From: Enterovibrio norvegicus DSM 15893
GTDB taxonomy: Bacteria; Pseudomonadota; Gammaproteobacteria; Enterobacterales; Vibrionaceae
Direction of reading: 5' to 3'
Assembly (NCBI RefSeq): GCF_900115495.1
Contig: NZ_FOWR01000024.1
Location: 1 to 64,000, forward strand
DNA: 64,000 nucleotides
The notes below the pieces were generated by a model, which saw only the letters and a list, made by a program, of their open reading frames with translations, was not told the DNA's origin and ran no database searches. The position numbers and the translations under genes were made by a program. The stretch's first letter is position 1. Each line of letters starts with the position of its first letter. Below, in pieces: positions 2,873-19,986 of this stretch.

Positions 2873-3021
2873 GCATCTACATCCCTGCGGTGGTTTGGCT
2901 AAGCGTTCAAATGCCTTAGTCACTGCATCTAAATCGCACTGACCATCATGGCCATTTGGATCAACGTAGTGGAGATAGCATGCTGAACGTGGGTGCCCAT
3001 TCAGCATGACATCTACAAGCA

Positions 3022-5202
3022 CTAAATACTGATACTGTTGGGTATCAAAGAGGGCAATTGCATCATGTAAGGCATGGGTCTTGAAGCATTACGCTGATGA
3101 ATGTCGATTTCAATTTTATTTAACCTCATGTGGAATGTGCTCAATATCGGCGCCACGCGTTTATCGGTGAAATAATGGATTCGTGGATCATCGGTATAGT
3201 GGCCCAAGGTATCGTATTGCACCCCCGCCAAGAGGTAAGCAAAAGAGGTTTGATACAGTGCGACATCCAGTGGTGGAAGCCAACTGACAACGTCTTCTTT
3301 GCGCAGTGGTTCACGGCTTCCTGGCATGGGTTTATACAAGGTGCCGGTAGCGCCTGGGATATACGACATGAGAGGGTATTGGGCAAAGTTCACCGAAGCA
3401 TGCTGCGCACTGGCGGTATAAATGATTTGTGCCACAACACGGCAAAGGTAATCGAAGTCATCGATTTGAACTGGGTGCTTGTCATCCCCCGTGGCAGTGA
3501 GTCCCTCCAAGCCTTTTACCGCTGCACGTTTTGGATTAACCAGTTCGTTAACCCAAGCCTGCAATTCCACATCCTCTAAGACCATGTTGTTGCGTTCTTC
3601 CTTAGAACGGCCTTCGTAATAGAGGGACAGATAATCAACCACAAAGTCATGGATCGACGCCCAAAGATCCATCGTGTCTTCCCTAAAGGGGAATGACGGC
3701 AAGGCGTTTTTTTCGACACCGCGTTGACCAAAGATCTTATCTGGATATTGGTCATCAAACCGGCGTTTTTCATAAGCTTCAACCAGCACCTCACCTGTTT
3801 CTTGATGCGAGGTTGAAATCACCGAAGCCACCACACCGCCTGGCACCATTAAACTGGTGTAAGCGCCGTTATTGATGTTCAACGTAAATCGGAAGTGGGG
3901 CTTTAATAACACCATCAGTGGATGCGCTTGTGGTAATTGTCGATGCGAAGCCACAATAATCGGCTCAATCACTAAATGGCATGCCCCTAAATGCGCAATG
4001 GTTTCATGCTCAATCGTACATGCATTTTGAACCACCATTTTTGCAAGTAGCCACTTAGCGCCATCACAGTCATTGTTATTGGTGCAGTCATTTGGCGTGA
4101 AAATGGGCGTGGTGTCGGCATCAAAATGCTGCCCTAATTGAATAGCGATAGGTTGTAACGCGCCGTCAGTAGGAAAGCCACTGGGCGGTGACGCGCTCCA
4201 ATAAAACAACGCAATGGGCGCTTCTGGGTAGCGGTGTAAACCATGCAGTGGCGCGCCCTTTTTACCTTCAAACATGGCGTAATCGCACACGTACAATAAA
4301 CCTTTGTTTGCGGCTTCGGTCAGCGTCAACGTGATGTCACCACTGACGTTTTGCAGAATGTCATCAGTGACGGGCATTTTTTCTAGCAACTCTGACAACA
4401 AGCACACGTTCTCGCACGCCGCTTTTTCGGTTCTCACCCCCCTTAAATTGGTGGTGTTGAACCCTGCAATTTGCATATAGCCAAAGTACCAATCTTGCAG
4501 GCAAATGGGCTGTTCATCATCCGGCATCCACGCTTTACGTTCGATATCCATTGCTTGCGGTGTAGGCAGCGAGTTAAAGAGCAGCTCATAATCTTCCAGC
4601 CCTTTCGCTTGCAAGTAATCCTTTCCACGTTCCTCATTCAGCGTGTAATAAAGCGTATTTTTAAGAAAAGCAGTAAAGCCTTCAGACTCAAACTCTTTCG
4701 TGACTTTGCTGAGACCTTCCACGATATTGGCCAAATCTTTCGGGAGATGAGAAAGGCCTTTGAGCGCAGCCTCGATGGAATTAGGCACTTCTACTAATGC
4801 GTCTAACAGGGCTTTCGTTTGCTCGACATCATCGATCAAAGCCAACGGTGAACTTGATGATTTATGCGCTTTCAATGTGAGGTAGGCGTCATTGACCTTT
4901 TTGATGGTTGAGGAGACATCACTCGTTAAGTCGTCTTCTATCTCTCGTTCAAGCAAAGACAGGACAACATGGGTGAAGTTTTCCAGTAAGGGCAAAAATA
5001 CCTTGGTCACTTTGGCTTCGTATTCAAGCGTAAACGCTTCACCTTCAGGCAGCCCGGCAGACAGAGAAAGTGGTTCAAGATAACTAAACATATAGTTGTA
5101 TGACGCTTGTGAAACCGAGACCTGAAAGGCTCTATCTTGCATGTCTTTCTCAGACAGACCTTGAGGAAGTGATGGGATAATGGGGGTCTTCTTGCGGTGC
5201 AT
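3022..5202 (-). CDS. lipoxygenase (non-haem iron fatty-acid dioxygenase)
   Basis: About 726 residues, typical for a bacterial lipoxygenase without a PLAT domain. The enzyme inserts O2 into polyunsaturated fatty acids. The family signature is clear: WLLAKMVVQNA, then HETIAHLGACH (two iron-binding His, about 398-409), EPIIVASHRQL, HPLMVLLKPH. A second metal-site region QHASVNFAQY lies near 600, and the chain ends in NSISI so that the terminal Ile can ligate iron. The start at 5202 (MHRKKTP) follows AAGGA by six bases; the frame is open 20 codons further. No signal peptide is evident. The stop abuts a diguanylate cyclase gene. Substrate and product regiochemistry cannot be read from the sequence. 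Confidence 0.93.
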   Translation of the reverse strand: MHRKKTPIIPSLPQGLSEKDMQDRAFQVSVSQASYNYMFSYLEPLSLSAGLPEGEAFTLEYEAKVTKVFLPLLENFTHVVLSLLEREIEDDLTSDVSSTIKKVNDAYLTLKAHKSSSSPLALIDDVEQTKALLDALVEVPNSIEAALKGLSHLPKDLANIVEGLSKVTKEFESEGFTAFLKNTLYYTLNEERGKDYLQAKGLEDYELLFNSLPTPQAMDIERKAWMPDDEQPICLQDWYFGYMQIAGFNTTNLRGVRTEKAACENVCLLSELLEKMPVTDDILQNVSGDITLTLTEAANKGLLYVCDYAMFEGKKGAPLHGLHRYPEAPIALFYWSASPPSGFPTDGALQPIAIQLGQHFDADTTPIFTPNDCTNNNDCDGAKWLLAKMVVQNACTIEHETIAHLGACHLVIEPIIVASHRQLPQAHPLMVLLKPHFRFTLNINNGAYTSLMVPGGVVASVISTSHQETGEVLVEAYEKRRFDDQYPDKIFGQRGVEKNALPSFPFREDTMDLWASIHDFVVDYLSLYYEGRSKEERNNMVLEDVELQAWVNELVNPKRAAVKGLEGLTATGDDKHPVQIDDFDYLCRVVAQIIYTASAQHASVNFAQYPLMSYIPGATGTLYKPMPGSREPLRKEDVVSWLPPLDVALYQTSFAYLLAGVQYDTLGHYTDDPRIHYFTDKRVAPILSTFHMRLNKIEIDIHQRNASRPMPYMMQLPSLIPNSISI

Positions 5203-5247
5203 GTGCTTTCCTTGCCTACAGGCCTTTCTGATGCTTTCGCTGTGAGC

Positions 5248-5284
5248 ATTTAGATAACGCAATGAGACATAGCGTTATCTAAAT
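5248..5284. promoter_or_regulatory. 13-bp perfect inverted repeat upstream of the lipoxygenase
   Basis: ATTTAGATAACGC at 5248-5260 is repeated in reverse complement at 5272-5284 with an 11-base spacer. It lies 46-82 bases upstream of the lipoxygenase start. It could be a dimeric operator or a hairpin in the 5' leader. No T-run follows on the lipoxygenase strand, so a simple terminator is unlikely. Confidence 0.55.
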
Positions 5285-5701
5285 GATTCATTTGTGAGAC
5301 AAAGAAACAATAACAAAAGCATCAATACAAGTTCGTACGCGGAAATTCAGGCGCACAACACAAACATCAATAATTGAGACAGATATTTAATTAAATTGTA
5401 AGAAACAGAATGTCATTACACATTGACCCTGGCGCAGGGAAGGCCGTTTTAATACGCGCGTTCTGAGAAAAAGAGCAGCACAACAAAAAAGAGCTGCACA
5501 ACACTCAATGTCTTACCGGATGTCAGCGTAACGGCTCATAGAAGATCCAAACATGCTCGTCAAAAAGCAAAGCTTGTGATGATGGAAAGGAATCCTGCAT
5601 TGTCGGTACAAAGCCATGCCTTTTAGTATCCCTAGAGCGAGGAAACGCTAAGTAATCAGCGTCTCCCGATATCAGAATCAGACTGAGAAAAGGGATTAAC
5701 C
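5285..5701. other. intergenic region between divergent lipoxygenase and carbonic anhydrase genes
   Basis: About 420 bases without a convincing gene. It must hold the promoters of both divergent genes. The part from 5290 to 5420 is AT-rich. I see no RNA gene or clear repeat besides the inverted repeat just to the left. Confidence 0.5.
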
Positions 5702-6283
5702 ATGAGTAATGTAAAGCAAGAAGTGGAGCTCGCAAACCGTGACTACGTTGAAAACTTTGGTGATAAAGGGCAATTACAAATTCCCCCTAGCCGACAGTTT
5801 GCGGTGTTAACATGCATGGATGCACGGTTAGATCCTGCGAAATTTGCCGGGTTTGCTGAAGGCGAGGCACATGTCATTCGTAATGCGGGTGGTCGCGCAA
5901 GTAGCGACGCGATCCGCTCACTGGTGTTGTCACATAAGTTGCTTGGCACACAAGAATGGTTTGTTGTGCACCATACGGATTGCGGCATGGAAAAGTTTGA
6001 CCAACAGACGATGGCAACATTACTGGAAGAAAGCCTGCATACTGCCATTGCCGATCAAACCGGTTGGCACAATGTGACGCAAGAAGGCGGCACCATTGAA
6101 GGGCACTTTGTGAATTGGCTGACGATCAATGATCTTAAACACAGCGTTGTTGAAGACGTTCAACGCATTAAAGCAAGCCCAATGGTGCCTAAAGACATTC
6201 CCATTTACGGCTATGTTTTTGATTGCGAAACGGGCGAGTTGATTGAAGTTGAAGAGGCCACAAAAGCAGGTGTTGCGGCATAA
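5702..6283 (+). CDS. beta-class carbonic anhydrase
   Basis: A zinc enzyme that interconverts CO2 and bicarbonate in the cytoplasm, 193 residues. Zinc ligands and the catalytic dyad are visible: CMDARLD (Cys and the Asp/Arg pair) near residue 38, and VHHTDCG (His and Cys) near 90. [18 protein letters not shown] is the conserved stretch between them. Its compact form, with the Cys motif close to the N terminus, resembles the small beta-CA subfamily rather than the housekeeping Can protein. AGGGA precedes the ATG. It appears monocistronic, with a possible terminator at 6368-6396. Confidence 0.9.
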
Positions 6284-6367
6284 CCAGTAGTGCTTGATGT
6301 GCACCTTTGTGCCTATAAAGGCATGTGGTGTGTCAGTCCCTTGAGGCGCACTTAGGGCGCACTCAAC

Positions 6368-6396
6368 AAAGGGGCATGATGTAAATCATGTCCCTT
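6368..6396 (+). terminator. possible terminator after the carbonic anhydrase gene
   Basis: A stem AAAGGGGCATGAT / ATCATGTCCCTT with a GTAA loop and one mismatch. The T-run is short (TTATTG), so efficiency is uncertain. Confidence 0.45.
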
Positions 6397-6511
6397 ATTG
6401 TGTGTTGATACGCCATGAGATCGCGCTATTCGCTCTAGCATTAGGTCGCATGAGTATCAGGTTGTCATCGTGTCAGTATGCAAACCCAATGCCATCCCGT
6501 GATTACACTTT

Positions 6512-6904
6512 TTAAACCTGTTTATCGCGCTCAGCCAAAGCATGACCAGACAGCACCAATAAGCCAGCGAAAATCCCCAGGTTCTTCACGAAGTTCTGCA
6601 TTTCATGCGCGCCTTCAATGCCTGAGTAGTTCCAGAAATCATGTAACGACACATTGATCACCAGTACAAGACCTGCCAGCAGTAGCGCTACCAGCCAAGT
6701 AAAGCGGTTTGCTATCAGCAAAAGCGCCGCACCTATTTGGAAAACACCCGCAAGCCCCAACAAAACAGGGGTGAACGGCATGTCATGCTTTTCCATCAAC
6801 TGGATATGCATGTCCCACGATGCAAACTTCATGATGCCGGGAATCAAAAAGTACAAAGCCAGCAGGACGCGACCAGCGGTCAGCAATAGTGTGTTCATGT
6901 TCAT
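6512..6904 (-). CDS. DoxX-family integral membrane protein
   Basis: About 130 residues with four predicted membrane helices, the DoxX arrangement: AGRVLLALYFLIPGIMKF with the typical G-x-x-K-F end of helix 1, then GLAGVFQIGAALLLI, VALLLAGLVLVI and NLGIFAGLLVL. The start ATG at 6904 follows AAGGA. DoxX proteins are linked to redox or thiol stress in some bacteria, but their reaction is not settled. The neighbour on the same strand upstream is ohr, which fits an oxidative-stress context. Confidence 0.85.
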   Translation of the reverse strand: MNMNTLLLTAGRVLLALYFLIPGIMKFASWDMHIQLMEKHDMPFTPVLLGLAGVFQIGAALLLIANRFTWLVALLLAGLVLVINVSLHDFWNYSGIEGAHEMQNFVKNLGIFAGLLVLSGHALAERDKQV

Positions 6905-6926
6905 CAATCCTTGAGGGTTAATCGTT

Positions 6927-7004
6927 GAGAGCGAATGTCTGAGAGCGAGTCTTAGAAAACGAGTCTTAGAGAGCTAGTCTTAAATAGCTAGTCTTAAATA
7001 GCTA
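6927..7004. repeat. 14-bp tandem repeat, about 5.5 units
   Basis: Units of 14 bases: GAGAGCGAATGTCT, GAGAGCGAGTCTTA, GAAAACGAGTCTTA, GAGAGCTAGTCTTA, AATAGCTAGTCTTA, then a partial AATAGCTA. The array fills the gap between doxX and ohr and runs into the ohr stop codon. Units diverge gradually along the array, as expected of an old slippage or duplication product. Confidence 0.85.
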
Positions 7005-7424
7005 TAGCGGCGAACCGTTTACAGAGAGCGTAACGTCAATGTTGCCTTTTACAGCATTCGAGTATGGGCAAACCTGATGGGCTGTTTTCACTACTTGCTG
7101 TGCTTGCTCATCGTCGAGATCTAACGTGACAGCCAAGGCAACGGTCAGCGCAAAACCACCTGCGTCATTTGGGCCTATGCCCACTTCTGCCGTGACAGGT
7201 GCTTGAGAGAGTGTGATTTTCATTTCACGCGCAACGTGAAGAATAGCGTTAGAAAAACACGCAGAGTAACCCGCAGCAAACAGCTGCTCAGGGTTCGTCG
7301 CTTCACCTGTGCCGCCCATTTCTTTCGGGTAGCTCAGTGCAAGATCCAGCATGTTGTCGTCGGTGCTTACCTGACCGTTTCGTCCTGCAGAAGCGGTTGC
7401 TTTCGTTTTGTAGAGTGTCGTCAT
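7002..7424 (-). CDS. ohr: organic hydroperoxide resistance protein Ohr (OsmC family)
   Basis: A 140-residue thiol peroxidase that reduces organic and fatty-acid hydroperoxides. Both redox cysteines are present in the right contexts: GYSACFSNA (about residue 55-60) and VCPYSNAVKGN (about 118). NPEQLFAAG is the Ohr/OsmC signature. It is divergent from ohrR, with palindromic AT-rich boxes between them, so repression by OhrR and release by peroxide is the expected control. The stop overlaps the end of the 14-bp repeat array. Confidence 0.95.
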   Translation of the reverse strand: MTTLYKTKATASAGRNGQVSTDDNMLDLALSYPKEMGGTGEATNPEQLFAAGYSACFSNAILHVAREMKITLSQAPVTAEVGIGPNDAGGFALTVALAVTLDLDDEQAQQVVKTAHQVCPYSNAVKGNIDVTLSVNGSPL

Positions 7425-7476
7425 TGTCTCGCCCTTCCATCTGAAATCTTATCTTCATTTAAATTGTTAGCAATTA

Positions 7477-7490
7477 AATTGCGCGCAATT
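7477..7490. promoter_or_regulatory. probable OhrR operator (palindrome 1)
   Basis: AATTGCGCGCAATT is a perfect 14-bp palindrome about 50 bases before ohr. A partly similar AATTGTTAGCAATT lies just left of it at 7462-7475. OhrR of the MarR family binds AT-rich palindromes of this style in ohr promoters; the assignment is by similarity and position. Confidence 0.65.
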
Positions 7491-7535
7491 AACTTTGAAG
7501 GAGTATAAGTCGATCCTAAAATGAAATACAAGTAT

Positions 7536-7547
7536 ATTGTGCACAAT
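7536..7547. promoter_or_regulatory. probable OhrR operator (palindrome 2)
   Basis: ATTGTGCACAAT is a perfect 12-bp palindrome just upstream of ohrR. It shares the ATTG-CAAT ends with palindrome 1, which suggests autoregulation. Confidence 0.6.
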
Positions 7548-7571
7548 CTATTTTTTCTAAGGTGTATTGAG

Positions 7572-8039
7572 ATGGCGAGCTCAGTGGAAAAACGTAATGA
7601 CCATCAGGCAGAAGCGCCTCAGCTTTTGCTTAAAAACCAAGTCTGCTTTTCGCTATACAGCGCATCGAATGCCATGATCCGCGCGTATCGCCCATTACTC
7701 AACGCGCTCGATCTGACCTACCCGCAATACCTCGCCATGATGGTGATTTGGGAAAAAGACGGAATTAACGTGAAAGATCTCGGGCATGATCTTCACCTCG
7801 ACTCAGGCACACTGACACCGCTACTAAAACGCCTAGAAAGCAAAGGCTTTATTGACAGAAAACGCAGCAGTGAAGACGAACGCATTCGTTTGGTGTTTCT
7901 CACCGAGCAAGGGCATGCGTTAAAAGAAAAAGCGCGCTCCGTGCCTGGCGCCATTTTTTGTAAAAGCCAATTAGAGAGGGAAGAACTGCAACAACTCAAA
8001 GCCACGTGCGAAAGGTTATTGGCGAACTTGCAGTTGTAG
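7572..8039 (+). CDS. ohrR: MarR-family organic peroxide sensor OhrR
   Basis: A winged-helix repressor of about 155 residues. The reactive Cys is in NQVCFSLYSASNAMIR, the usual OhrR position near the N terminus. DLTYPQYLAMMVIWE, DSGTLTPLLKRLESKG (recognition helix) and RSSEDERIRLVFLTEQG (wing) match OhrR closely. The start at 7572 (MASSVEK) is preferred. An in-frame ATG at 7521 would put the palindromic operator inside the coding region. It is divergent from its likely target ohr. Confidence 0.92.
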   Translation: MASSVEKRNDHQAEAPQLLLKNQVCFSLYSASNAMIRAYRPLLNALDLTYPQYLAMMVIWEKDGINVKDLGHDLHLDSGTLTPLLKRLESKGFIDRKRSSEDERIRLVFLTEQGHALKEKARSVPGAIFCKSQLEREELQQLKATCERLLANLQL

Positions 8040-8107
8040 CGGGGTGTAAGAAGGCCGAAAAGCACAGGGTTCGTCACTTTTACTTCCCCTGATGTTCCTT
8101 CATGAAT

Positions 8108-8133
8108 GGGAGGGAAAGCCACTTCCCCTCCCA
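8108..8133. terminator. possible bidirectional terminator between ohrR and the isochorismatase gene
   Basis: Inverted repeat GGGAGGG...CCCCTCCC between two convergent genes. It is GC-rich and lacks a long T-run, so it is only a candidate. Confidence 0.4.
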
Positions 8134-8144
8134 GACGTAACAGA

Positions 8145-8708
8145 CTATTTCGCCAGCGCCAAGAGCGCCTGTGTGCTGTCGACATTGCAGTAGCCGAAAC
8201 CTAATGCCGACATAAAGGCCGCATGCACCTGACTGGCAGGCACAGTGACGCCATTAAACACAAGATCAAGCGTGGCACAGGCATCATGCGCCACATGGCA
8301 TTCATAGTTAGAATCAACCGCAGCACGCGTGACAGCGTCAACGCACATATGGCTCATTGCACCCACAATCACCAATGTATCCACGTTTAACTGCGCCAGG
8401 GTGTGTTGCAGTTCCGTTTCCCGAAAACTGTTGATGTGATGTTTTAAAATCACAGGTTCGTCATCTATGGGTGCCACACTGGCATGAATGTGTGCGCCGT
8501 CAGAGTGAGGCAAGAAGAAAGGCGCGTCATTCGACGGAAATTCATGTCTAACATGGATCACAGGCAACCCTTGCTGGCGAAATGCATCGAGTAATGTTGC
8601 CGCGTTGGCTGCTGCCGCTTCCGTGCCTGATAAAGCCCATTTAGCACCAGAGTAAGACGGGAAATAATCGTTTTGAAAATCAATCAATAGTAAGGCAGTC
8701 TTAGACAT
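8145..8708 (-). CDS. isochorismatase-family cysteine hydrolase
   Basis: A cytoplasmic hydrolase of 187 residues with the alpha/beta fold of nicotinamidase and isochorismatase. The catalytic triad is visible: Asp in LLIDFQNDYF, Lys in ILKHHINSF, Cys in SHMCVDA. The substrate is not inferable. The divergent gene is a GlxA-type regulator, and such regulators often control a neighbouring hydrolase of this family, so the pair may form a unit. Confidence 0.88.
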   Translation of the reverse strand: MSKTALLLIDFQNDYFPSYSGAKWALSGTEAAAANAATLLDAFRQQGLPVIHVRHEFPSNDAPFFLPHSDGAHIHASVAPIDDEPVILKHHINSFRETELQHTLAQLNVDTLVIVGAMSHMCVDAVTRAAVDSNYECHVAHDACATLDLVFNGVTVPASQVHAAFMSALGFGYCNVDSTQALLALAK

Positions 8709-8809
8709 AACAGGTTCTCCATTTATCGGTTCGTGTTACCAGTAGAACCCATTATGTCGAGCCTTCACCCCGATTACCGATGGCGAAATTGCCATAAAAC
8801 AAGGCAAAA

Positions 8810-9733
8810 ATGACAACGTGTCTCCGCATTAGCATTGTTGATTACCCAGGCGCGCTGCAAAGCGCAGTGCATGGGTTGAAAGAAATCTTTCTGTTTGCCA
8901 ATAACATTATGGCAGAGGAAGAGAGTGAACTGACGTTCTCAGTGTGCATTGTGCAACCTGATCACCTCGCGTCATCAATCCACAATGGCCAGGTCGTCAT
9001 TTTGCCGCCGAGCGCAGAAGGAGACTATTACCTTCAACCCCATTCCTCGCTCCTTCAGTATTTACATCAAGCCCATCAAGAGGGCGCCATATTGTGCTCA
9101 GCATGTGCAGGGGCATTTCTTTTGGCGAGGGCAGGGGTGTTAGACGGGCGCGTTGTGACCACGCATTGGCAGTTGGCTGACAAATTCAGAGCCGCATTTC
9201 CCCATACGGCGCTAGAGAGTGAAAGCCTGCTGATCAATGGCGGCGATATCATTAGCGCGGGTGGCCTCATGTCATGGGTCGATTTAGGCCTAGAGATCGT
9301 CGCGCAGTATGCAAAGCCACATATCATGCGCAAGCTCGGAAAGTTTTTGATTGTTGATACTGGCAAACGTGAGCAACGGTATTACGAGAGTTTTCTGCCC
9401 AAATTTGATCATGGCAATAAAGCCATCTTACAGGTGCAGCACCATATTCAGGCGCATTATCACCAGCCCATGACCATCCCTCATTTAGCGAGCCAGGCAT
9501 GCATGAGTGATCGAACATTCTTACGGCAATTCACACAAGCGACCACACTAAAACCGACACAATACCTTCAACGCGTCAGGGTACAAAAAGCGTGTGAACT
9601 GCTTGAAACCACCACGCAAAGCTTTGAGCACATCGCCCTCAGCGTTGGCTATGAAGATGCCAACAGCTTTCGTAAAGTCTTTCTCAAAGTCATTGGGTTA
9701 TGCCCTTCCGCGTTCAGGGCGCGGTTTGTGTAA
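8810..9733 (+). CDS. GlxA-type AraC-family transcriptional regulator (DJ-1/PfpI + HTH)
   Basis: 307 residues. The N-terminal DJ-1/PfpI-like domain (about 1-180) shows the nucleophile-elbow motif CSACAGAFLLA and the following VVTTHW. The C-terminal AraC DNA-binding domain (about 205-305) has two helix-turn-helices: IPHLASQACMSDRTFLRQF and FEHIALSVGYEDANSFRKVF. The ligand is unknown. It is divergent from the isochorismatase-like gene with about 100 bases between them. Confidence 0.9.
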   Translation: MTTCLRISIVDYPGALQSAVHGLKEIFLFANNIMAEEESELTFSVCIVQPDHLASSIHNGQVVILPPSAEGDYYLQPHSSLLQYLHQAHQEGAILCSACAGAFLLARAGVLDGRVVTTHWQLADKFRAAFPHTALESESLLINGGDIISAGGLMSWVDLGLEIVAQYAKPHIMRKLGKFLIVDTGKREQRYYESFLPKFDHGNKAILQVQHHIQAHYHQPMTIPHLASQACMSDRTFLRQFTQATTLKPTQYLQRVRVQKACELLETTTQSFEHIALSVGYEDANSFRKVFLKVIGLCPSAFRARFV

Positions 9734-9787
9734 AGCGCCGCCAAGTAAACCTATAAACCTACCCCCGCCCACACCACCGCCACCACG

Positions 9788-9808
9788 ATGAAAGATCCCT
9801 GCGAGTGT
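9788..9808. repeat. left copy of a 21-bp direct repeat flanking the DGC-pepsin-avidin cluster
   Basis: ATGAAAGATCCCTGCGAGTG plus a final T. The same 21 bases with one change (C to T) occur at 12910-12930, where they include the 3' end of the MarR gene. The two copies bracket the three-gene cluster, so this looks like an insertion or recombination scar. Confidence 0.8.
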
Positions 9809-9968
9809 TCCAGCGAGTTTCCCCTTGGTCTTATCATCTAACTGATAAAGTCATGAATATGTTTGCGAGTGATATATCACTAGATGTTGTGTTTGATTGA
9901 CTTTGCTTCCACTGTTTTTAACGTGTCGATATTCGTGTTAACAGATTGTTCATCAGCGAGGTCATCAA

Positions 9969-10898
9969 ATGGAATTGAAGGACCGCTACTACACCGTTTT
10001 AGACGCCTTACCTGAGCATACATTTATCTTCTCGGAGTCTGGGGTATACATCGATGTTTACGGTGGGGAAGATAACGCCACAGGATTCGACTGCAAGCAG
10101 TTCATCGGTTCATCGCTGTATGACGTCGCTCCCGCTGAAATGGCTGAAACGTTTCATTCGTATATTAAAAAAGCGCTTGAAACGAATCAGGTACAACTCG
10201 CCTCGTATAAGTTCGATACCGATAACATGATCGAACTCCCTGACCATGTTATCGCGCCTGAACAGATTTGGTTTGAAGCCACCATTAAACCTATCCCACT
10301 GATTGAAAACGGTGAGCGCACCGTTGTGTGGATAGCGAAAAATATCACTGAGCGCCATCTCTTGGAAAAACGTCTCAAAGAGCTGTCTGAAACAGATGAT
10401 CTTACAGGCATCGCCAACAGGCGCGCTTTTACCGAGGAGTTGCGAGGTGCACTGAAACGGTTTCAAACCGCCAATTCGCCTTTCTCTGTGCTTATGCTCG
10501 ACATCGATCACTTCAAGCAAATTAATGATTCGTTAGGCCATTATTGTGGAGACGAGGCGATTCAGTTCACGGTTAACTTATTGAATAAAAAACTGACGGG
10601 GTCTGATTTTTTCGGGCGAATTGGCGGTGAAGAGTTCGCCATTATCCTTTGGGATTCAGGGATAGAATCGGCCTACCAAAAAGCAGAGGAACTAAGACGT
10701 TTGCTAGAAAGCAGTCGCTTCGTGGCAGAAGAGAAAAAAATAAAACTGACGGTGAGTGTCGGTGTCACCGAGGTTCGTGAATCAGACGACAACATAAAAA
10801 GTATCATGGCAAGAGCCGATACTGCGATGTACCACTCGAAGAAAACGGGCAGAAATAAAGTCAGTCGTTTCTTCTCAAGCCACGAAAAGAAAAACTGA
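9969..10898 (+). CDS. cytoplasmic PAS-GGDEF diguanylate cyclase
   Basis: 309 residues without a membrane segment. A PAS sensor (about 8-130, ending in the typical VVWIAKNITERHLLEKRL) is followed by a GGDEF domain with DDLTGIANRRAF, DIDHFKQINDSLGH and an intact GGEEF site near residue 220. It should make c-di-GMP from GTP in response to a PAS-bound signal. No I-site RxxD is obvious five residues before GGEEF. It is the first gene of a compact operon: the next ATG lies one base after its stop. Confidence 0.9.
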   Translation: MELKDRYYTVLDALPEHTFIFSESGVYIDVYGGEDNATGFDCKQFIGSSLYDVAPAEMAETFHSYIKKALETNQVQLASYKFDTDNMIELPDHVIAPEQIWFEATIKPIPLIENGERTVVWIAKNITERHLLEKRLKELSETDDLTGIANRRAFTEELRGALKRFQTANSPFSVLMLDIDHFKQINDSLGHYCGDEAIQFTVNLLNKKLTGSDFFGRIGGEEFAIILWDSGIESAYQKAEELRRLLESSRFVAEEKKIKLTVSVGVTEVRESDDNIKSIMARADTAMYHSKKTGRNKVSRFFSSHEKKN

Positions 10899-10899
10899 G

Positions 10900-12090
10900 A
10901 TGTTAAATAAAGAAACTGATGGTTTCTCCTTGCCATTACAACGAGGACCTTTCCAGAACAATGGCGCAACACCCTGGTTCTGCGAGTTGAATATGGGTAC
11001 GCCGGGACAAACGTTAAAATTCTGTTTTGATACAGGGAGTAACTTTAACTGGGTGACGTCTAGCCTTTGCTCTGATGATGGTTGCCAACATTATGCGAAT
11101 GGTCGCTTCATGTTTTCTGAATCATCAACCTTTGAATGGATTGATCAAACCGGGACAACGGTTGATTTCGGCCCGTGGGGGTGCATGGAAGCTGAAGAGG
11201 GCAGAGATAAACTTTGTATGCCTACTCAAAAGGCATTGGACACCTGTTTATTCATATCGTTGTACCTGTCTAAAAAATATTCAGGTACACAGTTTGATGA
11301 GCTGGACTGGGATGGCGGTATTGGGCTACCTAGCGGCGAAGTGTCTGAAATTCCTCTCGATAAGCTGTCTGGTGCTTTCAGGCTCGCACAATCTCACGCA
11401 GGGCAACCTATTCACTCCCACTTTTTTCTCGATCTTATGGAAAAAGGGTTCGTCAGTAAAAAGCGACCATTTATCAGTTTTTTAAGCGACATGAGCGAAG
11501 AGAAATCGGCGAGAGGAACCGTTAGCTTTGGATTGCTCGATGACGCGTATTCAACGTCGCTTGAGTACCTCTTTTTACCGTGGGCACGTTATCGGGAAGA
11601 AGTGCCTTACCTTTGGAGCGCCGAGAATGCCTCAATAAGCGTTGGCGATAACCTTATTGGGGAAGATCTCTATTTTACCTTGGACAGTGGCTCTTCTCAG
11701 TTCAAAGGAGACAAAACAGTACTGAAAAAGGTTTTTGAACAGACGACAGAGAGCAGTCCTGTGGTTTCGATTTCTCTGACCGACAGTGGGGGTGAGGAAT
11801 ATGGGTTGTTGGAAATCACCAGTGATGTATATCGATGCGACATTGAGGAAGGGCAGCACAAAGGGCAAGCGGTCTCACAGTTTCAGTCGCTGACGCAGGC
11901 GGAAGGCATGTTATTGGTGGGCTCTGTATTGATGGACCACTTGTACACGGTTTATGAATACGAAGAGCCATCAGACGGCCAATTGGCACCCAAAGGTGTG
12001 TGGATTTTTAATAAGCCTGATGGACCAAAAATTATCCAGACCAAGCAAAAAGAGCCCGCAAGTCTATTCAATACGCTAAAGGCGAAATAA
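10900..12090 (+). CDS. pepsin-family (A1) aspartic protease, bacterial shewasin-like
   Basis: 396 residues with both pepsin active-site motifs, an arrangement rare in bacteria: FDTGSNFNWV near residue 44 (first Asp, followed by the W-V of pepsins) and FTLDSGSSQF near 262 (second Asp). The opening WFCELNMGTPGQTLKF matches the first strand pair of pepsins (usually Y...IGTPPQ). Neither signal peptide nor propeptide is seen, so the enzyme is probably cytosolic, as described for the Shewanella pepsin homologues (shewasins). It has many cysteines. The start is one base after the diguanylate cyclase stop, and its TAA overlaps the next ATG (TAATG), indicating translational coupling at both ends. Confidence 0.87.
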   Translation: MLNKETDGFSLPLQRGPFQNNGATPWFCELNMGTPGQTLKFCFDTGSNFNWVTSSLCSDDGCQHYANGRFMFSESSTFEWIDQTGTTVDFGPWGCMEAEEGRDKLCMPTQKALDTCLFISLYLSKKYSGTQFDELDWDGGIGLPSGEVSEIPLDKLSGAFRLAQSHAGQPIHSHFFLDLMEKGFVSKKRPFISFLSDMSEEKSARGTVSFGLLDDAYSTSLEYLFLPWARYREEVPYLWSAENASISVGDNLIGEDLYFTLDSGSSQFKGDKTVLKKVFEQTTESSPVVSISLTDSGGEEYGLLEITSDVYRCDIEEGQHKGQAVSQFQSLTQAEGMLLVGSVLMDHLYTVYEYEEPSDGQLAPKGVWIFNKPDGPKIIQTKQKEPASLFNTLKAK

Positions 12091-12866
12091 TGCATAAGCA
12101 ATTAACGGGAATTTGGCACAATGATTTCCACTCTAAAATGGAACTCCTTGCGATAGAGAATAGGATCATTGGCCGATATAGCTCACACACTGGCTCGACA
12201 GGGGTTTATCAACTGGTAGGTCACTGCTCTGGTGAAGCCCCAACCAAGGAGATGGGGCAATCTGTCGCGCTCTCCATTTATTGGAAAAACATCGCTGAAG
12301 GTGAGAAAGATGAAAGCTGGCATTGGGTCGGCTCTATGGTTGGTCAACTTCAGCATGATGGAAAGCTAACGCTAACCAATGTGATCGTCGTTTCTGTGCC
12401 ATTTGGAAACTATCAGCAAGGTAACTTCGTTGATAAGTTGGCGTTTAAAAAGTCCTCAACAGACGTTGATCTTGAGTCAGTAAAGAGTGGCTTACCTGAA
12501 GATCGCAACATTGAAGAACGCCCTGTCATTGGAAAGTGGGTCAGTCTCGATCAGCGCCAACTGCTTGATATTTTCCATGTGGAAGGGGCCTCCGGTGCAA
12601 CGTCAGCATGTTTAGTGTGCGGGGATTCGGAAGTGATGCTTACTGGGTTTATAGACGTCGACGCCGAACCGGGAATGGCGCAAAGCTTATCGCTTTCGGG
12701 GTATGAATCAGATGAGCAGTCTGCTTTCTCTTTGTCAGGCATGCTTGAGCCTGGAAAAGATACGATGACCTTGTTTAGCTGGCATGCAGAGCAAACTTCC
12801 CCAGATGACAGTTTCATGCAGACACGCATGGACGCGACGTCCTTTCGCAGACTTACAACACGTTAA
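12090..12866 (+). CDS. tandem avidin-like domain protein (candidate biotin binder)
   Basis: 258 residues with no signal peptide. Residues about 5-120 follow the avidin/streptavidin strand order: LTGIWHNDFHSK (N and S spaced as streptavidin N23 and S27), IIGRYSS (as Y43/S45), YQLVGHCSG, ALSIYWKN (as W79), WHWVGSM (as W92), then NFVDKLAFKK (possible D128 position). Residues about 148-255 look like a second, more diverged copy: IGKWVSL, VMLTGFID, SLSLSGYES, LFSWHA, ATSFRRL. Alignment is by eye, so biotin binding is inferred and the second pocket may be dead. Its ATG overlaps the protease stop, so both are made together. Confidence 0.75.
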   Translation: MHKQLTGIWHNDFHSKMELLAIENRIIGRYSSHTGSTGVYQLVGHCSGEAPTKEMGQSVALSIYWKNIAEGEKDESWHWVGSMVGQLQHDGKLTLTNVIVVSVPFGNYQQGNFVDKLAFKKSSTDVDLESVKSGLPEDRNIEERPVIGKWVSLDQRQLLDIFHVEGASGATSACLVCGDSEVMLTGFIDVDAEPGMAQSLSLSGYESDEQSAFSLSGMLEPGKDTMTLFSWHAEQTSPDDSFMQTRMDATSFRRLTTR

Positions 12867-12898
12867 AATAAGTGGAAAATAAGTGGGACACACACATA
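12867..12898. repeat. REP-like motif (copy A)
   Basis: AATAAGTGGAAAATAAGTGG then GACACACACATA. It is very similar to 16024-16055 and shares the core GTGGGACACACAC with several other sites at 14.6-17.8 kb. It sits between the avidin-like gene and the MarR gene, a few bases from the right 21-bp repeat. Confidence 0.65.
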
Positions 12899-12907
12899 AC
12901 TGGTGTC

Positions 12908-13372
12908 CTATGAAAGATCCCTGTGAGTGTCTAACCAGTTTTTTAGCGTATCAGTGTGTTGCAGCATTTGGCGCATGTCTTCGCTATCCCACTGATCAAA
13001 GCATTGATCCATCACGGGAAGAAAACGCATGAAAGCGGCTTGCACTTTACTCAGCCCTTCCTCGTTGATTTTTATCCACTTCTTCCTGCCATCCGCGTCA
13101 TCTTTTCGAATATCAACGAGCCCCTGATCCGCAAGTTTATTCACCACCTTGGTTAATCCCGGCTGGTTCATTTGCATCACCTGAGCAAGCTGGCTGATGG
13201 TTTGCTCGCGTTCAGGTTGGTGAGAAAAGTGGTTCAGTAGATTGAACTGTGATTGATTCAGCCCACAAGGCTCAAGCGCTTTACTCAGCCAAGCATCCGT
13301 AAGTTGATGAACGATACCTAATGAAATCATTAACTTAAAAGATAATGTTTGTTTTTCTGTCAGCATATGCAT
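12908..13372 (-). CDS. MarR-family transcriptional regulator
   Basis: A winged-helix repressor of about 155 residues. HTH and wing are visible: EQTISQLAQVMQMNQPGLTK, VVNKLADQGLVDIRKDDADGRKKW (split here only for length), IKINEEG. The start at 13372 (MHMLTEK) follows GAGG; the frame opens 8 codons earlier. It is divergent from a nitroreductase-like gene, and two palindromic boxes in the gap overlap its probable promoter, so autoregulation and control of that neighbour are likely. Its 3' end includes one copy of the 21-bp direct repeat. Confidence 0.88.
   Translation of the reverse strand: MHMLTEKQTLSFKLMISLGIVHQLTDAWLSKALEPCGLNQSQFNLLNHFSHQPEREQTISQLAQVMQMNQPGLTKVVNKLADQGLVDIRKDDADGRKKWIKINEEGLSKVQAAFMRFLPVMDQCFDQWDSEDMRQMLQHTDTLKNWLDTHRDLS
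12910..12930. repeat. right copy of the 21-bp direct repeat
   Basis: ATGAAAGATCCCTGTGAGTG plus T, overlapping the last codons of the MarR gene. It matches 9788-9808 at 20 of 21 bases. Since this copy is part of a gene, it is probably the original. Confidence 0.8.
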
Positions 13373-13389
13373 CAAACCTCTTGATATAT

Positions 13390-13421
13390 ATTCCAAGGAA
13401 TGTATATTTATTCCATGGAAT
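13390..13421. promoter_or_regulatory. tandem operator boxes ATTCC-NN-GGAAT
   Basis: ATTCCAAGGAAT at 13390-13401 and ATTCCATGGAAT at 13410-13421. They are exactly 20 bases apart, so they lie on the same face of the helix. They sit in the gap between the divergent MarR and nitroreductase genes. This is a convincing site pair for the MarR dimer. Confidence 0.75.
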
Positions 13422-13455
13422 GTACTTTAACAGAACATGAAAAAAGGGGATAGCG

Positions 13456-14607
13456 ATGAATAGACGGAACTTCATGAAAGTGATGGGAACGGGTGCAGTT
13501 GTGTTAGCGGCAGGACCTATGGTGGTGAGCCAAGTCTCGGGCGCAAGCAATGTGTCGTTCAGGCCGACACTGACCTACACCGACATACGCAAAACATTGA
13601 TTAGCTATGCCATGCTATGCCCCAATCCACACAACATACAGCCATGGAAAGTTGCCTTCGAAGGCAAAGACACCCTGCTGCTTTTCGTGGACAGCGACAG
13701 GCTGCTGCCACAAACCGACCCTGTTCATCGTCAAATTCATATCGGTCAGGGCACATTCATCGAAAGCCTCCTTATTGCCGCCACGCACTTTGGGGTGAGG
13801 GCGAACGTTCACTATTTCCCTCAAGGCGAATACAGCAACCAAGCATTACAAGACAAACCGGTTGCCTCTATCACCCTCGAACGTGACGACAGCATTACGC
13901 CTGATCCCTTGTTCCCGTATTTGCTTACGCGACAATCCACCAAGACCGAATACACCCAGGAACTGCTCAGCGACACCGAATTAAACAAGATAGTGAGCAC
14001 GGCATCTGGCAGCGATTACCGCATTGACCTAGTGCAAGACAATGAAGGGAAAGCCGCGATGCGAGGCTTCTTAAACCAAGCCATGTTCATCGAAGAACAA
14101 AATGCAGACAGAAGCTTAGAGACAATCGGCATGTTCCGCTTCAATGACAAAGAGTATGCACAGCATCGCGACGGTTTCGGGCTTGCTCAAAACGGCGTAA
14201 CAGGCGCAAAGCGTTGGTTAGCTGAAACATTCTTTGTTTCTCGAGGAGCAGCTGAGAGCGACCCGGCGAGTTTTGGGAAAGAAGGCATCAAGTTGACCGA
14301 AGCGGTAACTCAAAGCACCCAGCACTTTGCCTTACTGATCAGCAAAGACAACACCCGCAAAACGCAGGTCGACATCGGGCGCTTATACAATCGCATCAAC
14401 CTGCTGACCGCCACCATGGGCATCGCCCAACACCCCATGAGCCAAATCTTGCAAGAATACAAAGATATGCTGCCATTGCAGAAAGAATTTAAGCAGCGGT
14501 TCAATGTGTCAGAAACAGACACTGTGCAAATGGTATTCAGGCTCGGAAAAGCCCAACGAACGCCAGAGTCACCAAGGCGAGAAGTGAAGGATGTGCTGGT
14601 ATCCTAA
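13456..14607 (+). CDS. Tat-exported nitroreductase-like flavoprotein (Acg-type)
   Basis: 383 residues. The N terminus MNRRNFMKVMGTGAVVLAAG is a twin-arginine signal, so the protein would fold with cofactor before export. The mature part resembles Acg-like nitroreductases: CPNPHNIQPW near the start (the FMN-contact region of the family), DRLLPQTDP, and a C-terminal MVFRLGKAQRTPESPRR. Such proteins are larger and more diverged than housekeeping nitroreductases, and substrates are largely unknown. It is divergent from, and probably controlled by, the adjacent MarR regulator. GGGGAT precedes the ATG. Confidence 0.85.
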   Translation: MNRRNFMKVMGTGAVVLAAGPMVVSQVSGASNVSFRPTLTYTDIRKTLISYAMLCPNPHNIQPWKVAFEGKDTLLLFVDSDRLLPQTDPVHRQIHIGQGTFIESLLIAATHFGVRANVHYFPQGEYSNQALQDKPVASITLERDDSITPDPLFPYLLTRQSTKTEYTQELLSDTELNKIVSTASGSDYRIDLVQDNEGKAAMRGFLNQAMFIEEQNADRSLETIGMFRFNDKEYAQHRDGFGLAQNGVTGAKRWLAETFFVSRGAAESDPASFGKEGIKLTEAVTQSTQHFALLISKDNTRKTQVDIGRLYNRINLLTATMGIAQHPMSQILQEYKDMLPLQKEFKQRFNVSETDTVQMVFRLGKAQRTPESPRREVKDVLVS

Positions 14608-14917
14608 GTAGGACACACACTTTACGAAAAGCATAGGTTTGTCAGTTTCATTGTTCCGTGGGTTTATGCTCAAACATGACAGATGAAGATGAAGATGAAA
14701 GCTAAGTCATTGGGCGATAGTCTTTTCATATCGCCAATGCAAAACCATGTTGAGTTTCAATGACAAAAGCACGCGCCTCTCTTATCAGTGTCGACGCGAC
14801 GCCCTATTACCACTGTGTGTCTCGTTGTGTTCGCCGTTCATTTTTATGTGAATTGAAGAATGTTGTTTGAGGGTGATTTGGCTGTTGTCTAAAAGTGTGT
14901 GTCTTATTAGTTCTCCA
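14603..14917. mobile_element. REPIN-like inverted pair enclosing a RAYT remnant
   Basis: The left end CCTAAGTAGGACACACACTT (14603-14622) and the right end AAAAGTGTGTGTCTTATTAG (14891-14910) form an imperfect inverted repeat with the same core seen elsewhere in the window. Between them lies the N-terminal remnant of a RAYT transposase. The right end, from about 14863, also resembles 17761-17815 in direct alignment. Confidence 0.6.
14760..14870 (+). pseudogene. REP-associated tyrosine transposase (RAYT), N-terminal remnant
   Basis: A 36-codon frame starting [20 protein letters not shown] and continuing [10 protein letters not shown], then an early stop. This is the typical opening of Y1-type REP-associated transposases. 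The HUH motif and catalytic Tyr that should follow are missing, so it is dead. A second, C-terminal remnant lies at 16.1-16.6 kb, so the two could derive from one family but not from a simple split, because their N-terminal parts overlap. Confidence 0.75.
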
Positions 14918-15003
14918 GAGAATAAGAAAAGGATATGGCAGCGTTAGCCGCTGCCGTTAGTTTTACCGAGTGCGCTCTTTACGCATTGCCATCTAGGTGT
15001 TTG

Positions 15004-15237
15004 TTATTCTTGCGTGGTAAGCGCAAGAAAGTTCCAATCTTCAGGAAAACACGCCTTTAAAGCTGTCTCTAATTCATCACTTGTTGCGTCATCAGTACTG
15101 AATTCTGCATCTGAATTCGTGATATTAAATTCAACATCCCAGTGTTTATCTTTTTTGATGGTCTCTGCAATAGCCTGACATTTTATCTCGGAAGGTATGT
15201 CTCTAGGGTTTGGTGGAATCACACTTACACTGGCCAT
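15004..15237 (-). CDS. small hypothetical protein
   Basis: 77 residues, acidic (SDAEFSTDDATSDELETALK), with no recognised domain, signal peptide or membrane segment. Its ATG overlaps the stop of the upstream gene (TAATG), so the two are translationally coupled. GAGGAT upstream serves as ribosome site. It lies between two RAYT remnants in a region of REP-like motifs, which suggests accessory origin. I do not recognise the family. Confidence 0.65.
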   Translation of the reverse strand: MASVSVIPPNPRDIPSEIKCQAIAETIKKDKHWDVEFNITNSDAEFSTDDATSDELETALKACFPEDWNFLALTTQE

Positions 15238-15845
15238 TATTTATCCTCAGTTCTTTCTGAGTAAGAAACGACGTCAATCTTAACGTCACCGTCTTGTGCA
15301 TCATTCAGAAGTTTCATCAGATTGGTGGAGCCCACCACAAGATTATCTAGCGCATTGTCACCACCAGCGGTTCCATCGAGAAGAATGCTTTGACAGAGTT
15401 TGGCGGCTGCGTTGTTACTGAAAAAAGTGTTTAACCCAATGAATTGAATTTCACTGGTAAATGAGTGATCTGAAATATTTGCCCTAATACTGCCAAAGCC
15501 ATCGCAATTAAAGTCTTTGTCGTCTACTACGAGACCAACGTAAAAACCATACCCAAACTGAATGGCATCAGGTCCATCATGTCTAACCGGGTTGGCAAAG
15601 CTTTCAGAGACAGTGCAGCAGATGGTAAGAAACGTTTTATCACTGTCATAGGAGGCTGAGAACAAACTGCCGAAGCTTGCCGAAAAGCTATCCTCGTTTT
15701 CTACTTTCTGGGTAAACACAGACAGTGCACCTAAGTTAGTTTTCTGAAGGTTTTGGATTTTACTCCATGTTTCATCACCCAAATAGACTGCCGGTGCAGA
15801 GAAATTCTCGCTGTACTTGTCTGGAGTACAAAAAACTTTCGCCAT
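15237..15845 (-). CDS. hypothetical protein coupled to the 77-residue protein
   Basis: About 202 residues, unrecognised. The start MAKVFCTPDKY at 15845 is chosen because AAGGAT lies 6 bases upstream; an in-frame ATG at 15851 sits too close to it. The sequence is mainly predicted beta, with no signal peptide and no membrane helix (GYGFYVGLVVDDKDFNCDGF, SFTSEIQFIGLNTFF). Together with the small downstream gene it forms a two-gene unit. No function is proposed. Confidence 0.7.
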   Translation of the reverse strand: MAKVFCTPDKYSENFSAPAVYLGDETWSKIQNLQKTNLGALSVFTQKVENEDSFSASFGSLFSASYDSDKTFLTICCTVSESFANPVRHDGPDAIQFGYGFYVGLVVDDKDFNCDGFGSIRANISDHSFTSEIQFIGLNTFFSNNAAAKLCQSILLDGTAGGDNALDNLVVGSTNLMKLLNDAQDGDVKIDVVSYSERTEDK

Positions 15846-16023
15846 GTTCATATCCTTGTGAAATTGAGGTGTCTTAAAATTGAAACAGCAAAAGTAGGTA
15901 TAGCTAAATATTTATAACTGCCTTAAAAAAAGACCTGGAAGACTAGAAAAACGTGCATCTGATCTCTCTTTTCTCTGGCTTTGTTGGTGCCTCTCAGCGC
16001 GCTTTAAACAATAGGTCACATCT

Positions 16024-16055
16024 AACAAGTGGAGAATAAGTGGGACATATATGGA
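16024..16055. repeat. REP-like motif (copy D)
   Basis: AACAAGTGGAGAATAAGTGG then GACATATATGGA. It aligns with copy A at 12867-12898 over about 30 bases. It precedes the second RAYT remnant. Confidence 0.6.
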
Positions 16056-16096
16056 CGCTTCTCGAACGTCAAACCTAAACGCACATGTCGTTTCGC

Positions 16097-16606
16097 ATAG
16101 CGAGACGATATTGACCACTGTGTTTCTCGTTATGTCCGCCGTTCATTTTTAAGTGGATACGATGAAAAAGCGCTGGCTGCTGCTATGGCGTATGTTGATT
16201 TGAATCCAGTACGGACAGCGATAGCGGAAACTCCAGAAACGTCAGAACACACATCCGTCAAAGCGCGTATTGCGTCATTAAAGAAAACACGAGTGACGCC
16301 CTCTAACATGTTTCCCTTCGCAGGAAACCCGCGAGAAAACATGCCTGATGGCTTACCGTTTAGATTGATGGATTACCTAGAGCTTGTTGATTGGACAGGG
16401 CGACAAAGCCGAGACGATAAGCGTGGGCATATTGATGGGAAAGAACCGGAGATACTCAAACGTTTAGGGTTTGATTCAGCCCAATGGCTTGCTAACTATA
16501 AGCACGCAGAAAAGGGCAGCATGATTGGCACAGAATCGTCCATTAAGGTTGCCTTGCCGTTGCTAGGTCGCAAACGGCTGTGTGGGTTTCGGATACCCGC
16601 TGGCTA
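16097..16606 (+). pseudogene. REP-associated tyrosine transposase (RAYT), internally deleted
   Basis: In one frame the sequence reads HCVSRYVRRSFLSGYDEKAL, which joins the N-terminal motif directly to the C-terminal third (AAAMAYVDLNPVRTAIAETPE ... FRLMDYLELVDWTG ... LGRKRLCGFRIPAG). The central part with the HUH and catalytic Tyr region, roughly 100 residues by family comparison, is gone. The 5' end lacks a start codon. From an ATG at 16185 a 140-codon frame is still open, but it would be inactive as a transposase. Confidence 0.8.
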
Positions 16607-16611
16607 ATACG

Positions 16612-16634
16612 AACTATCGGGACACACACTTCAT
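16612..16634. repeat. REP-like motif (copy E)
   Basis: ACTATCGGGACACACACTTC at the 3' end of the second RAYT remnant. It carries the shared core GGGACACACACTT. Confidence 0.5.
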
Positions 16635-16809
16635 CAAACCAAGGCCCCCATCTCTTGGTGTACACCTTACCATTGTATTTTGGAGTGAATCGCAACCACG
16701 GTAATCAGCGTAGAGCTGCAATGATAAACCCTGCTACCTTCCTTTTGAGATAAAGGTCAAAGCTCATTGGCTTTGAGTCGGAGAGTCCAAATAAGAGGAA
16801 GAAATAGCG

Positions 16810-17397
16810 GTGAGTGACAAGCAAGTTCCAGATGAAATTAGGGGCTGGAATTGGGGAGCGTTGCTCCTCAATATCATTTGGGGCATACGTTTTAGATGTT
16901 ACAGAACCTTATGGGTGCTCTTCCCATTTTTTGGTGTTTTCTATCTGTTTGTTGTGGGTGCGAAAGGTAATGAGTGGGCATGGAAAAACAACGAGTGGGA
17001 GAGTGTCGAAGCGTTCAAGGCATCACAAAAAAGATGGTCGCGAGCGGCGCTTGCCTATATTGGTGTTCTCGTTTTGTTTTCCATTGTCTTCACCAACTTC
17101 CTGACTCATGAGTTTGATAACTCTCCTTCCACCGAGATAGCTCTAGCGACGCTTGAGAAAAGTGAATCCTTCAAAGCCAATATAGGTGTCCCCTATGATT
17201 ACTCTTTGAAGCATGGAAAGCTTGGTGGTCCTGAATCAGAGGGCTTTGCTGAAATGGAGTATGCTATTGAAGGATTCAAAGGCGAAGGCATACTTTTCTT
17301 CAAAGCTAGCCATATTCTCCAGGACTGGACATTGGATTGTTTGACGATTCAGTATACTGACACACAAGAAACTGAGGCCGTTATACCTTGTGATTAG
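16810..17397 (+). CDS. membrane protein with C-terminal Coa1-like domain
   Basis: 195 residues from a GTG start preceded by AAGAGGAAG. The N-terminal half has two short hydrophobic segments around RTLWVLFPFFGVFYLFVVGA and ends in a membrane helix AYIGVLVLFSIVFTNF. This N-terminal part resembles DUF2628-like small membrane modules. The C-terminal part (about 115-195: SESFKANIGVPYDYSLKHGK, GEGILFFKA, LDCLTIQY) resembles the Coa1/Tim21-like domain named for a cytochrome oxidase assembly factor. Assignment is by pattern only. No respiratory genes are nearby, so a role in oxidase assembly should not be assumed. Confidence 0.65.
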   Translation: MSDKQVPDEIRGWNWGALLLNIIWGIRFRCYRTLWVLFPFFGVFYLFVVGAKGNEWAWKNNEWESVEAFKASQKRWSRAALAYIGVLVLFSIVFTNFLTHEFDNSPSTEIALATLEKSESFKANIGVPYDYSLKHGKLGGPESEGFAEMEYAIEGFKGEGILFFKASHILQDWTLDCLTIQYTDTQETEAVIPCD

Positions 17398-17455
17398 CTA
17401 TTTGAAAATAGTGATAAAGCAATGGATAAGCTGCAAAAGGCATAAGTGCAGCTTT

Positions 17456-17677
17456 CTAATTTTGAACCTCACAGATAAAGATATCTCGTCCTTCACCGTT
17501 GAATGACTCTCCAACGATGCGCTCTATTTGTGCTAGTTGTTTATGGTTTACATCAGCACCGTCACCCTCTAAATGAAAACCAAATATTCGGTGAACGTCT
17601 TCAGGTGTGAGTGCGGTTAATGCGCATTCTTCGAGTAACTCTTCAGTCTTTTTGTCAAAAAATTCGAGTTCAAACAT
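17456..17677 (-). CDS. small acidic hypothetical protein
   Basis: 73 residues from MFELEFFDKKTEELLEECAL; the frame opens 14 codons earlier without a ribosome site. No membrane segment or signal. The small, acidic and solitary character is like that of immunity or anti-type proteins, but nothing toxin-like lies beside it, so no function is claimed. It is immediately followed on the right by a REPIN-like element. Confidence 0.55.
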   Translation of the reverse strand: MFELEFFDKKTEELLEECALTALTPEDVHRIFGFHLEGDGADVNHKQLAQIERIVGESFNGEGRDIFICEVQN

Positions 17678-17710
17678 TCTACTTTTCAGCCTTTCTTTCG
17701 AAGAGCAATC

Positions 17711-18130: not shown

Positions 18131-18141
18131 ACGTGATATGT

Positions 18142-19976: not shown

Positions 19977-19986
19977 TAGTTTATCT

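Follow-up and report, generated by a model that had tools for sequence, protein, structure and literature searches.

Three genes lie in series on the + strand of the window analyzed here, a 64,000-nucleotide stretch of Enterovibrio norvegicus DSM 15893 (contig NZ_FOWR01000024.1, positions 1 to 64,000), and encode a PAS-GGDEF protein (9969-10898), a pepsin-family (A1) aspartic protease (10900-12090) and an avidin-like protein (12090-12866). We found that the A1 protease and the two-domain avidin either share their inheritance or are fused, and that they lie beside a GGDEF output with a PAS sensor in two architectures. The best explanation of the evidence as a whole, to which we give a probability of about 40%, is that the trio is a horizontally exchanged, cytosolic signaling module that works through cyclic di-GMP (c-di-GMP). 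The initial annotation of this DNA had proposed a cytosolic module for signaling, proteolysis and ligand binding, and, judged from the sequence comparisons below, this proposal appears well supported as far as a conserved and mobile unit is concerned.

Recurrence, common descent and movement of the trio

An A1 pattern scan of a species-genome collection returned three loci, in Psychromonas antarctica (L005), Vibrio sp. Of7-15 (L007) and an Aliivibrio metagenome-assembled genome (L006), the first two of which have the trio in the window's gene order. Further genome surveys found an A1 match in 4 of 61 relatives, 10 of 296 family genomes, 7 of 394 order genomes and 3 of 369 class genomes (the window's own genome included); these surveys are samples and their carriers are related, so the matches cannot be counted as independent events. 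An extended avidin was present in 6 of the 394 order-sample genomes, and these are the same six genomes that hold the close A1 matches; the seventh A1 genome of that sample (G439) has only a distant A1 (L033, Pfam 95.9 bits), beside which an avidin was not found and which stands outside the A1 tree and residue counts given below. Similarly, PF01382 matched in 16 of 398 phylum genomes, and the four extended avidins among them (G000, G1154, G1222, and G1306) are all fused to or beside an A1, whereas A1 was not found near the avidins of the other twelve genomes (13 loci, with 7 to 13.5 kb read).

Reading neighborhoods of 12-14 kb together with Pfam matches revealed two architectures. In type 1, a PAS_4-GGDEF gene is followed by A1 and avidin genes. 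This order was found at seven loci in four families, namely the window, L034 (genome G016), L007, L005, L029 (G350), L023 (G306) and L030 (G460), with L006, which has no avidin, besides. The initial annotation had tied its proposal to the presence of the trio in other genomes, and six loci other than the window carry it. The type-1 GGDEF genes were recognized by their own profile and also by Pfam in the window, L007, L030 and L034; the PAS_4 of L030 falls under the Pfam cut-off. In type 2, an A1-avidin unit precedes a hybrid kinase and a REC-GGDEF protein (eight loci: L024, L025, L026, L027, L028, L031, L032, and L090). The A1 and avidin parts are fused in four of these loci and are separate genes in L031 and L090, and REC and GGDEF are above the Pfam cut-off in the second protein of all eight. 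The type-2 kinases, with frames of 779 to 928 residues except in L027, contain HisKA, HATPase and REC by Pfam (HisKA being partial in L027), and PAS_4 is above the cut-off in six and below it in L024 (21.4 versus 23.1). Overall, of the 18 loci that have A1 together with avidin, 15 lie next to a GGDEF system that includes a PAS sensor, and the GG[DE]EF motif is intact in all 15 GGDEF proteins (7/7 of type 1 and 8/8 of type 2).

A maximum-likelihood tree was built from 20 A1 proteins, and in it all eight type-1 rows, L006 among them, fell on one side with a branch support of 100/99, although false joins are possible among the long outer branches. Both architecture types include hosts of families f1 and f10 and, as read from this tree, the split follows the partner type and not the host. 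Further, the protein distances across the seven trios were correlated, with r values of 0.95 (GGDEF-A1), 0.92 (GGDEF-avidin) and 0.97 (A1-avidin); of 5040 label permutations, 2, 7 and 1, respectively, gave values as high. Shared descent of the hosts can contribute to this correlation.

Comparison of window positions 3000-22000 with 14 kb of G016, a genome of the same genus, revealed that only 9857-12855 is common to both (90% over 3001 columns). The G016 trio lies inside 3,368 bases where G008, G009 and G010 have 18 or 19 bases between matching flanks, and this insertion contains the three genes only, with no recombinase seen. The insertion site differs between G016 and the window. For the upstream flank of the window cassette, 17 other genomes of the genus gave no match, and the window's own empty site was accordingly not found; the downstream flank matches G011 and G013. 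The ratio of nonsynonymous to synonymous substitution rates (dN/dS) between the window and G016 was 0.08 for the GGDEF gene and 0.19 for both the A1 and avidin genes, indicating that all three are under purifying selection; within the avidin gene, it was 0.10 for the first half and 0.31 for the second (window 12456-12863). Thus, linkage, fusion, co-descent and movement as a unit, together with the conserved catalytic motifs described below, were each seen in these comparisons.

The region that moves with the trio includes its 5' end (9857-9968, + strand, by homology to G016). No sigma-70 consensus was detected on the + strand at 9857..9968; the one site found by the scan is on the opposite strand, and shuffled sequences had a mean of 4.4. 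Within the window, the initial annotation had described translational coupling, and the one-base gap between genes 1 and 2 and the one-base overlap of genes 2 and 3 (TAATG) were both confirmed. The spacing did not extend to every trio, however: over the seven loci, 1 to 169 bases separate genes 1 and 2, and the values for genes 2 and 3 range from -4 to 15, and tight spacing is therefore no trait of the family.

Several loci carry mobile elements or signs of decay. In L006, an IS200-like transposase gene (9338-10336, opposite strand; Pfam Y1_Tnp 25.0 bits, cut-off 23) stands at the avidin's place, and a window open reading frame at 16185-16607, ∼3.3 kb past the trio, has a motif in common with it by eye and has no Pfam match. 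In L032 (G470), the avidin gene is interrupted at about 5796-6058 by ∼260 bases with terminal inverted repeats (by eye), resembling a small non-autonomous mobile element. A stop separates the A1 and avidin parts of a single frame in L025 (G242, 7509-7511), a sign of decay, and signs of decay are also present in L027 (G298, 2946-5721), where the A1 has DTA and the kinase occupies two frames. A short interspersed repeat in L034 (about 10160-10230) occurs at dozens of places in genomes of the genus.

Domains and conserved residues of the three proteins

The family assignments of the initial annotation are all borne out, each protein scoring above its Pfam cut-off. The product of gene 1 (309 aa) matches PAS_4 (about 9999-10358; 35.2 bits, cut-off 23.1) and GGDEF (10389-10859; 150.7 bits, cut-off 23.8) and, with its GGEEF motif, is a putative diguanylate cyclase. 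No paralogue of its PAS domain was found in the host genome at E up to 0.001. Genes 2 and 3 match the two families named for them in advance, Asp (PF00026, 60.5 bits, cut-off 19.9) and Avidin (PF01382, 32.6 bits, cut-off 24.0), the latter over the N-terminal part only. NCBIfam confirmed gene 1 at the domain level only and gave no match for gene 2 and no meaningful match for gene 3. Consistent with the annotation, no signal peptide was evident by eye in any of the three window proteins.

The A1 protein (396 aa) was compared by a profile that aligned with chymosin and pepsin across both lobes. The catalytic residues, placed by alignment, are Asp44 (codon 11029-11031, + strand) and Asp262 (codon 11683-11685, + strand), which form one D[TS]G motif per lobe and are kept in 20/20 A1 rows, with the Gly of the first motif in 19/20. 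Trp51 is likewise kept in 20/20 rows. The second psi-loop reads Leu-Val-Gly, with Val-Gly in 20/20 rows; the first reads Gly-Ile-Gly, where hydrophobic-hydrophobic-Gly is expected. No propeptide was seen, the catalytic domain starting within about 20 residues of the N-terminus.

The first avidin domain (residues 1-122 of the third protein, 12090-12455) gave a profile match to streptavidin with an E of 3.8e-8. Asn11 and Ser15 were found in 15/15 rows with a letter at those positions, and Tyr30, Ser32, Trp65 and Trp79 in 17/17 avidin rows; by eye from the alignments, these are the equivalents of streptavidin Asn23, Ser27, Tyr43, Ser45, Trp79 and Trp92. The alignments leave out L032 and include L025 only with the piece after its stop. 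We take these streptavidin residues and those listed below as lost to be the biotin-contact pocket; the kept set covers most of the ureido-ring contacts, so that a cyclic urea other than biotin itself is possible as the ligand.

The description of the third protein as a tandem avidin fared less evenly. Pfam gave no match for the C half in the window, L034 or L042, and when the N and C halves were compared in a 13-row alignment the score was 18.96, which 2 of 100 shuffles exceeded (best 20.5). However, a 17-row alignment of the C half matched a profile of 9 short avidins with a score of 39.1 (compare 16.9 for the best of 60 shuffles, 12.8 for the reversed sequence, and 9.3-12.1 for five unrelated profiles) and a probability of 88.9, and matched the N domain with a probability of 93.1, both probabilities being pairwise and free of database-search correction. 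These profile-profile comparisons support the view that the C-terminal half (residues 143-258, 12516-12866) is probably a second, divergent avidin domain.

A possible signaling route and its alternatives

What the module may bind, what it may cleave and in which direction it would signal, we infer as follows. The first avidin domain would bind a cyclic-ureide ligand, the candidates being biotin, biotinylated proteins or peptides, and other cyclic ureas. The ligand-bound avidin would then direct or license the protease, which is without the inhibitory propeptide of eukaryotic pepsins. This event would be relayed through the PAS protein, the GGDEF domain of which would make c-di-GMP; the protease might act on the PAS protein, make the PAS ligand or destroy the avidin-bound target. 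A more specific version, which we regard as tentative and on balance doubtful, holds that avidin and pepsin form a portable input module in which the two-domain avidin senses a cyclic urea and steers the protease, and any PAS-GGDEF system wired to it makes c-di-GMP.

A number of observations weigh against the c-di-GMP module as proposed. The flap Tyr75 of pepsins is replaced by Phe90 in 20/20 A1 rows, and the A1 of G298 (L027) has DTA for DTG. Rawlings and Bateman thought inactivity likelier for the Marinomonas and Sinorhizobium proteins, which have the same flap Phe, as stated in the parts of PMC2761423 drawn on here; the chief ground given there for suspecting them is loss of psi-loop motifs. 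Further, the first avidin domain departs from streptavidin at Asn49, Ser88, Thr90, Trp108 and, as aligned, Asp128 (Asp115, present in 16/17 rows, is two residues off the aligned place of Asp128). The L027 kinase is split over two reading frames, with the PAS-like part in the other piece by eye. Of 17 other carriers searched, 9 have related PAS domains elsewhere, so that this domain is not exclusive to the module. Finally, A1 and avidin lack an adjacent GGDEF match in L088 and L089 (both fusions) and in L042, a fusion with a signal-like start that lies beside a convergent PAS-kinase-REC gene and has an avidin part scoring 23.9 bits with Pfam (cut-off 24) and 98.8 with our own profile; L006 has GGDEF and A1 genes without an avidin; and a Novosphingobium plasmid (L109) has an extended avidin without A1 or such a GGDEF within 18.8 kb. 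Given these exceptions, no part is obligatory everywhere.

The order of command could be the reverse, with the PAS-GGDEF protein (or the kinase and REC-GGDEF pair) as a controller that raises local c-di-GMP upon a stress cue and an A1-avidin effector that would then attack or sequester targets bearing biotin or a ureide, for instance in defense or competition. In the parts of their paper considered here, Laitinen et al. (PMC8033661) suggest a link to defense for avidin fused to A1, and the mobile and patchy occurrence of the module resembles that of much defense cargo. However, no c-di-GMP-binding domain was seen by Pfam in the A1 or avidin, none of the three proteins matched a PADLOC model, the window A1 had no match in the plasmid or phage records searched, and the cytosolic look of the proteins by eye makes action on other cells unlikely. 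We consider this explanation improbable.

A metabolic role, in which A1-avidin captures and processes cyclic-urea or biotinylated peptides and the GGDEF genes are mere local co-regulators, is suggested by a third context, the hydantoinase/oxoprolinase neighborhood, which is outside both GGDEF designs. In G1222 and G1306 (one genus), the A1-avidin fusion comes after a same-strand series of genes for hydantoinase A and B, a binding-protein-like protein (called by eye), an Asp/Glu/hydantoin racemase and an MFS transporter. Genes for hydantoinase A and B also lie next to the A1 of L041, a locus without avidin, and the extended avidin of L109 has racemase and hydantoinase A/B genes downstream, as annotated. 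The A and B genes beside an A1, an A1-avidin or an extended avidin lie in L119 (496-9575), L120 (2175-12553), L041 (6751-11953) and L109 (8995-18771), and an Asp/Glu or hydantoin racemase is present in three of these four loci. These neighbors hint at cyclic amide or urea ligands. A cyclic urea is present in both hydantoin and biotin, and our choice of a cyclic ureide as the likely class of ligand rests on this common feature. As an account of the trio itself, a metabolic device is nevertheless unlikely: 15 of the 18 A1-avidin loci have GGDEF neighbors, the A1 phylogeny tracks the type of GGDEF partner, and no hydantoinase gene was recognized by eye among the window open reading frames listed at 6000-17000.

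The A1 could also be a pseudo-protease, the pair then serving purely as a ligand receptor for the PAS-GGDEF protein. The invariant flap Phe, the Gly-Ile-Gly of the first lobe and the single DTA favor this under the rule in the consulted parts of PMC2761423, which also describe the Tyr75-to-Phe change as a common replacement and no criterion for exclusion from family A1. Both catalytic Asp residues and the Val-Gly of the second psi-loop are invariant, however, and the A1 dN/dS is 0.19; we think this reading quite unlikely. The host genome has 46 GGDEF matches, so that a GGDEF neighbor is not rare in itself (by our estimate, about one in a hundred per adjacent gene), but conservation across divergent loci and two architectures, fusions, a shared phylogeny and movement as a unit make chance neighbors without a shared function extremely improbable.

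In the parts of the literature cited here, no natural function is established for intracellular bacterial pepsins or protease-linked avidins, and a conserved operon that joins both to c-di-GMP offers a concrete pathway for testing both. Should the avidin domain turn out to sense biotin or another cyclic urea within the cell, second-messenger signaling would have a new type of ligand input, and the pair would be a natural protease-avidin tool. Overall, this shared and apparently swapped cassette of marine bacteria points to an undescribed mode of intracellular sensing.

Comparison with known systems

The combination had been presented as new, and this stands only in part. Fusions of A1 with avidin and C-terminal avidin extensions were published in 2021 by Laitinen et al. 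(PMC8033661), whose proteins resemble ours in that A1 lies on the N-terminal side of avidin and that avidins are extended at the C-terminus by ∼150 residues. The paper assigns no conserved domain to the extension, where we find a second avidin-like domain, and its text does not contain the terms GGDEF, diguanylate, histidine kinase or operon, whereas the pair is tied here to PAS-GGDEF systems. We found no account of a c-di-GMP link of A1-avidin in the open-licence PubMed Central (PMC) literature, as far as its texts were covered.

Shewasins A and D are likewise family A1 proteins without a signal peptide or a typical propeptide, and shewasin D is reported to be active and mainly cytosolic, according to the parts of PMC2761423 and PMC4814920 consulted; the terms for neighboring genes that were searched are absent from both papers. 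In the same parts of PMC2761423, the flap residue of the Shewanella proteins is Tyr, whereas the Phe found here is as listed for Marinomonas and Sinorhizobium; the Asp44-Phe90 spacing is that of the Marinomonas protein (D49, F95). A known anti-phage defense system was rejected as an identity, PADLOC models matching 0/3 window proteins at E up to 0.01.

The first avidin domain matches streptavidin and other avidins and keeps six pocket-residue equivalents, and it differs from them in the absence of a visible signal peptide, the presence of two domains per chain, changes at other pocket residues and the link to a protease. A precedent in design is rimABK, in which, according to the parts of PMC11957791 consulted, three genes again form an operon that joins a c-di-GMP enzyme to an aspartic protease and one partner; some hosts have hybrids of protease and partner, and the gene trees differ from the host trees. 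However, RimA degrades c-di-GMP, RimB is retropepsin-like and RimK glutamylates a ribosomal protein; because a phosphodiesterase, a retropepsin-like protease and a glutamate ligase are absent here, identity with rimABK was rejected, and the trio, composed by Pfam of PAS-GGDEF, A1 and avidin proteins, shares with it a layout built from unrelated families.

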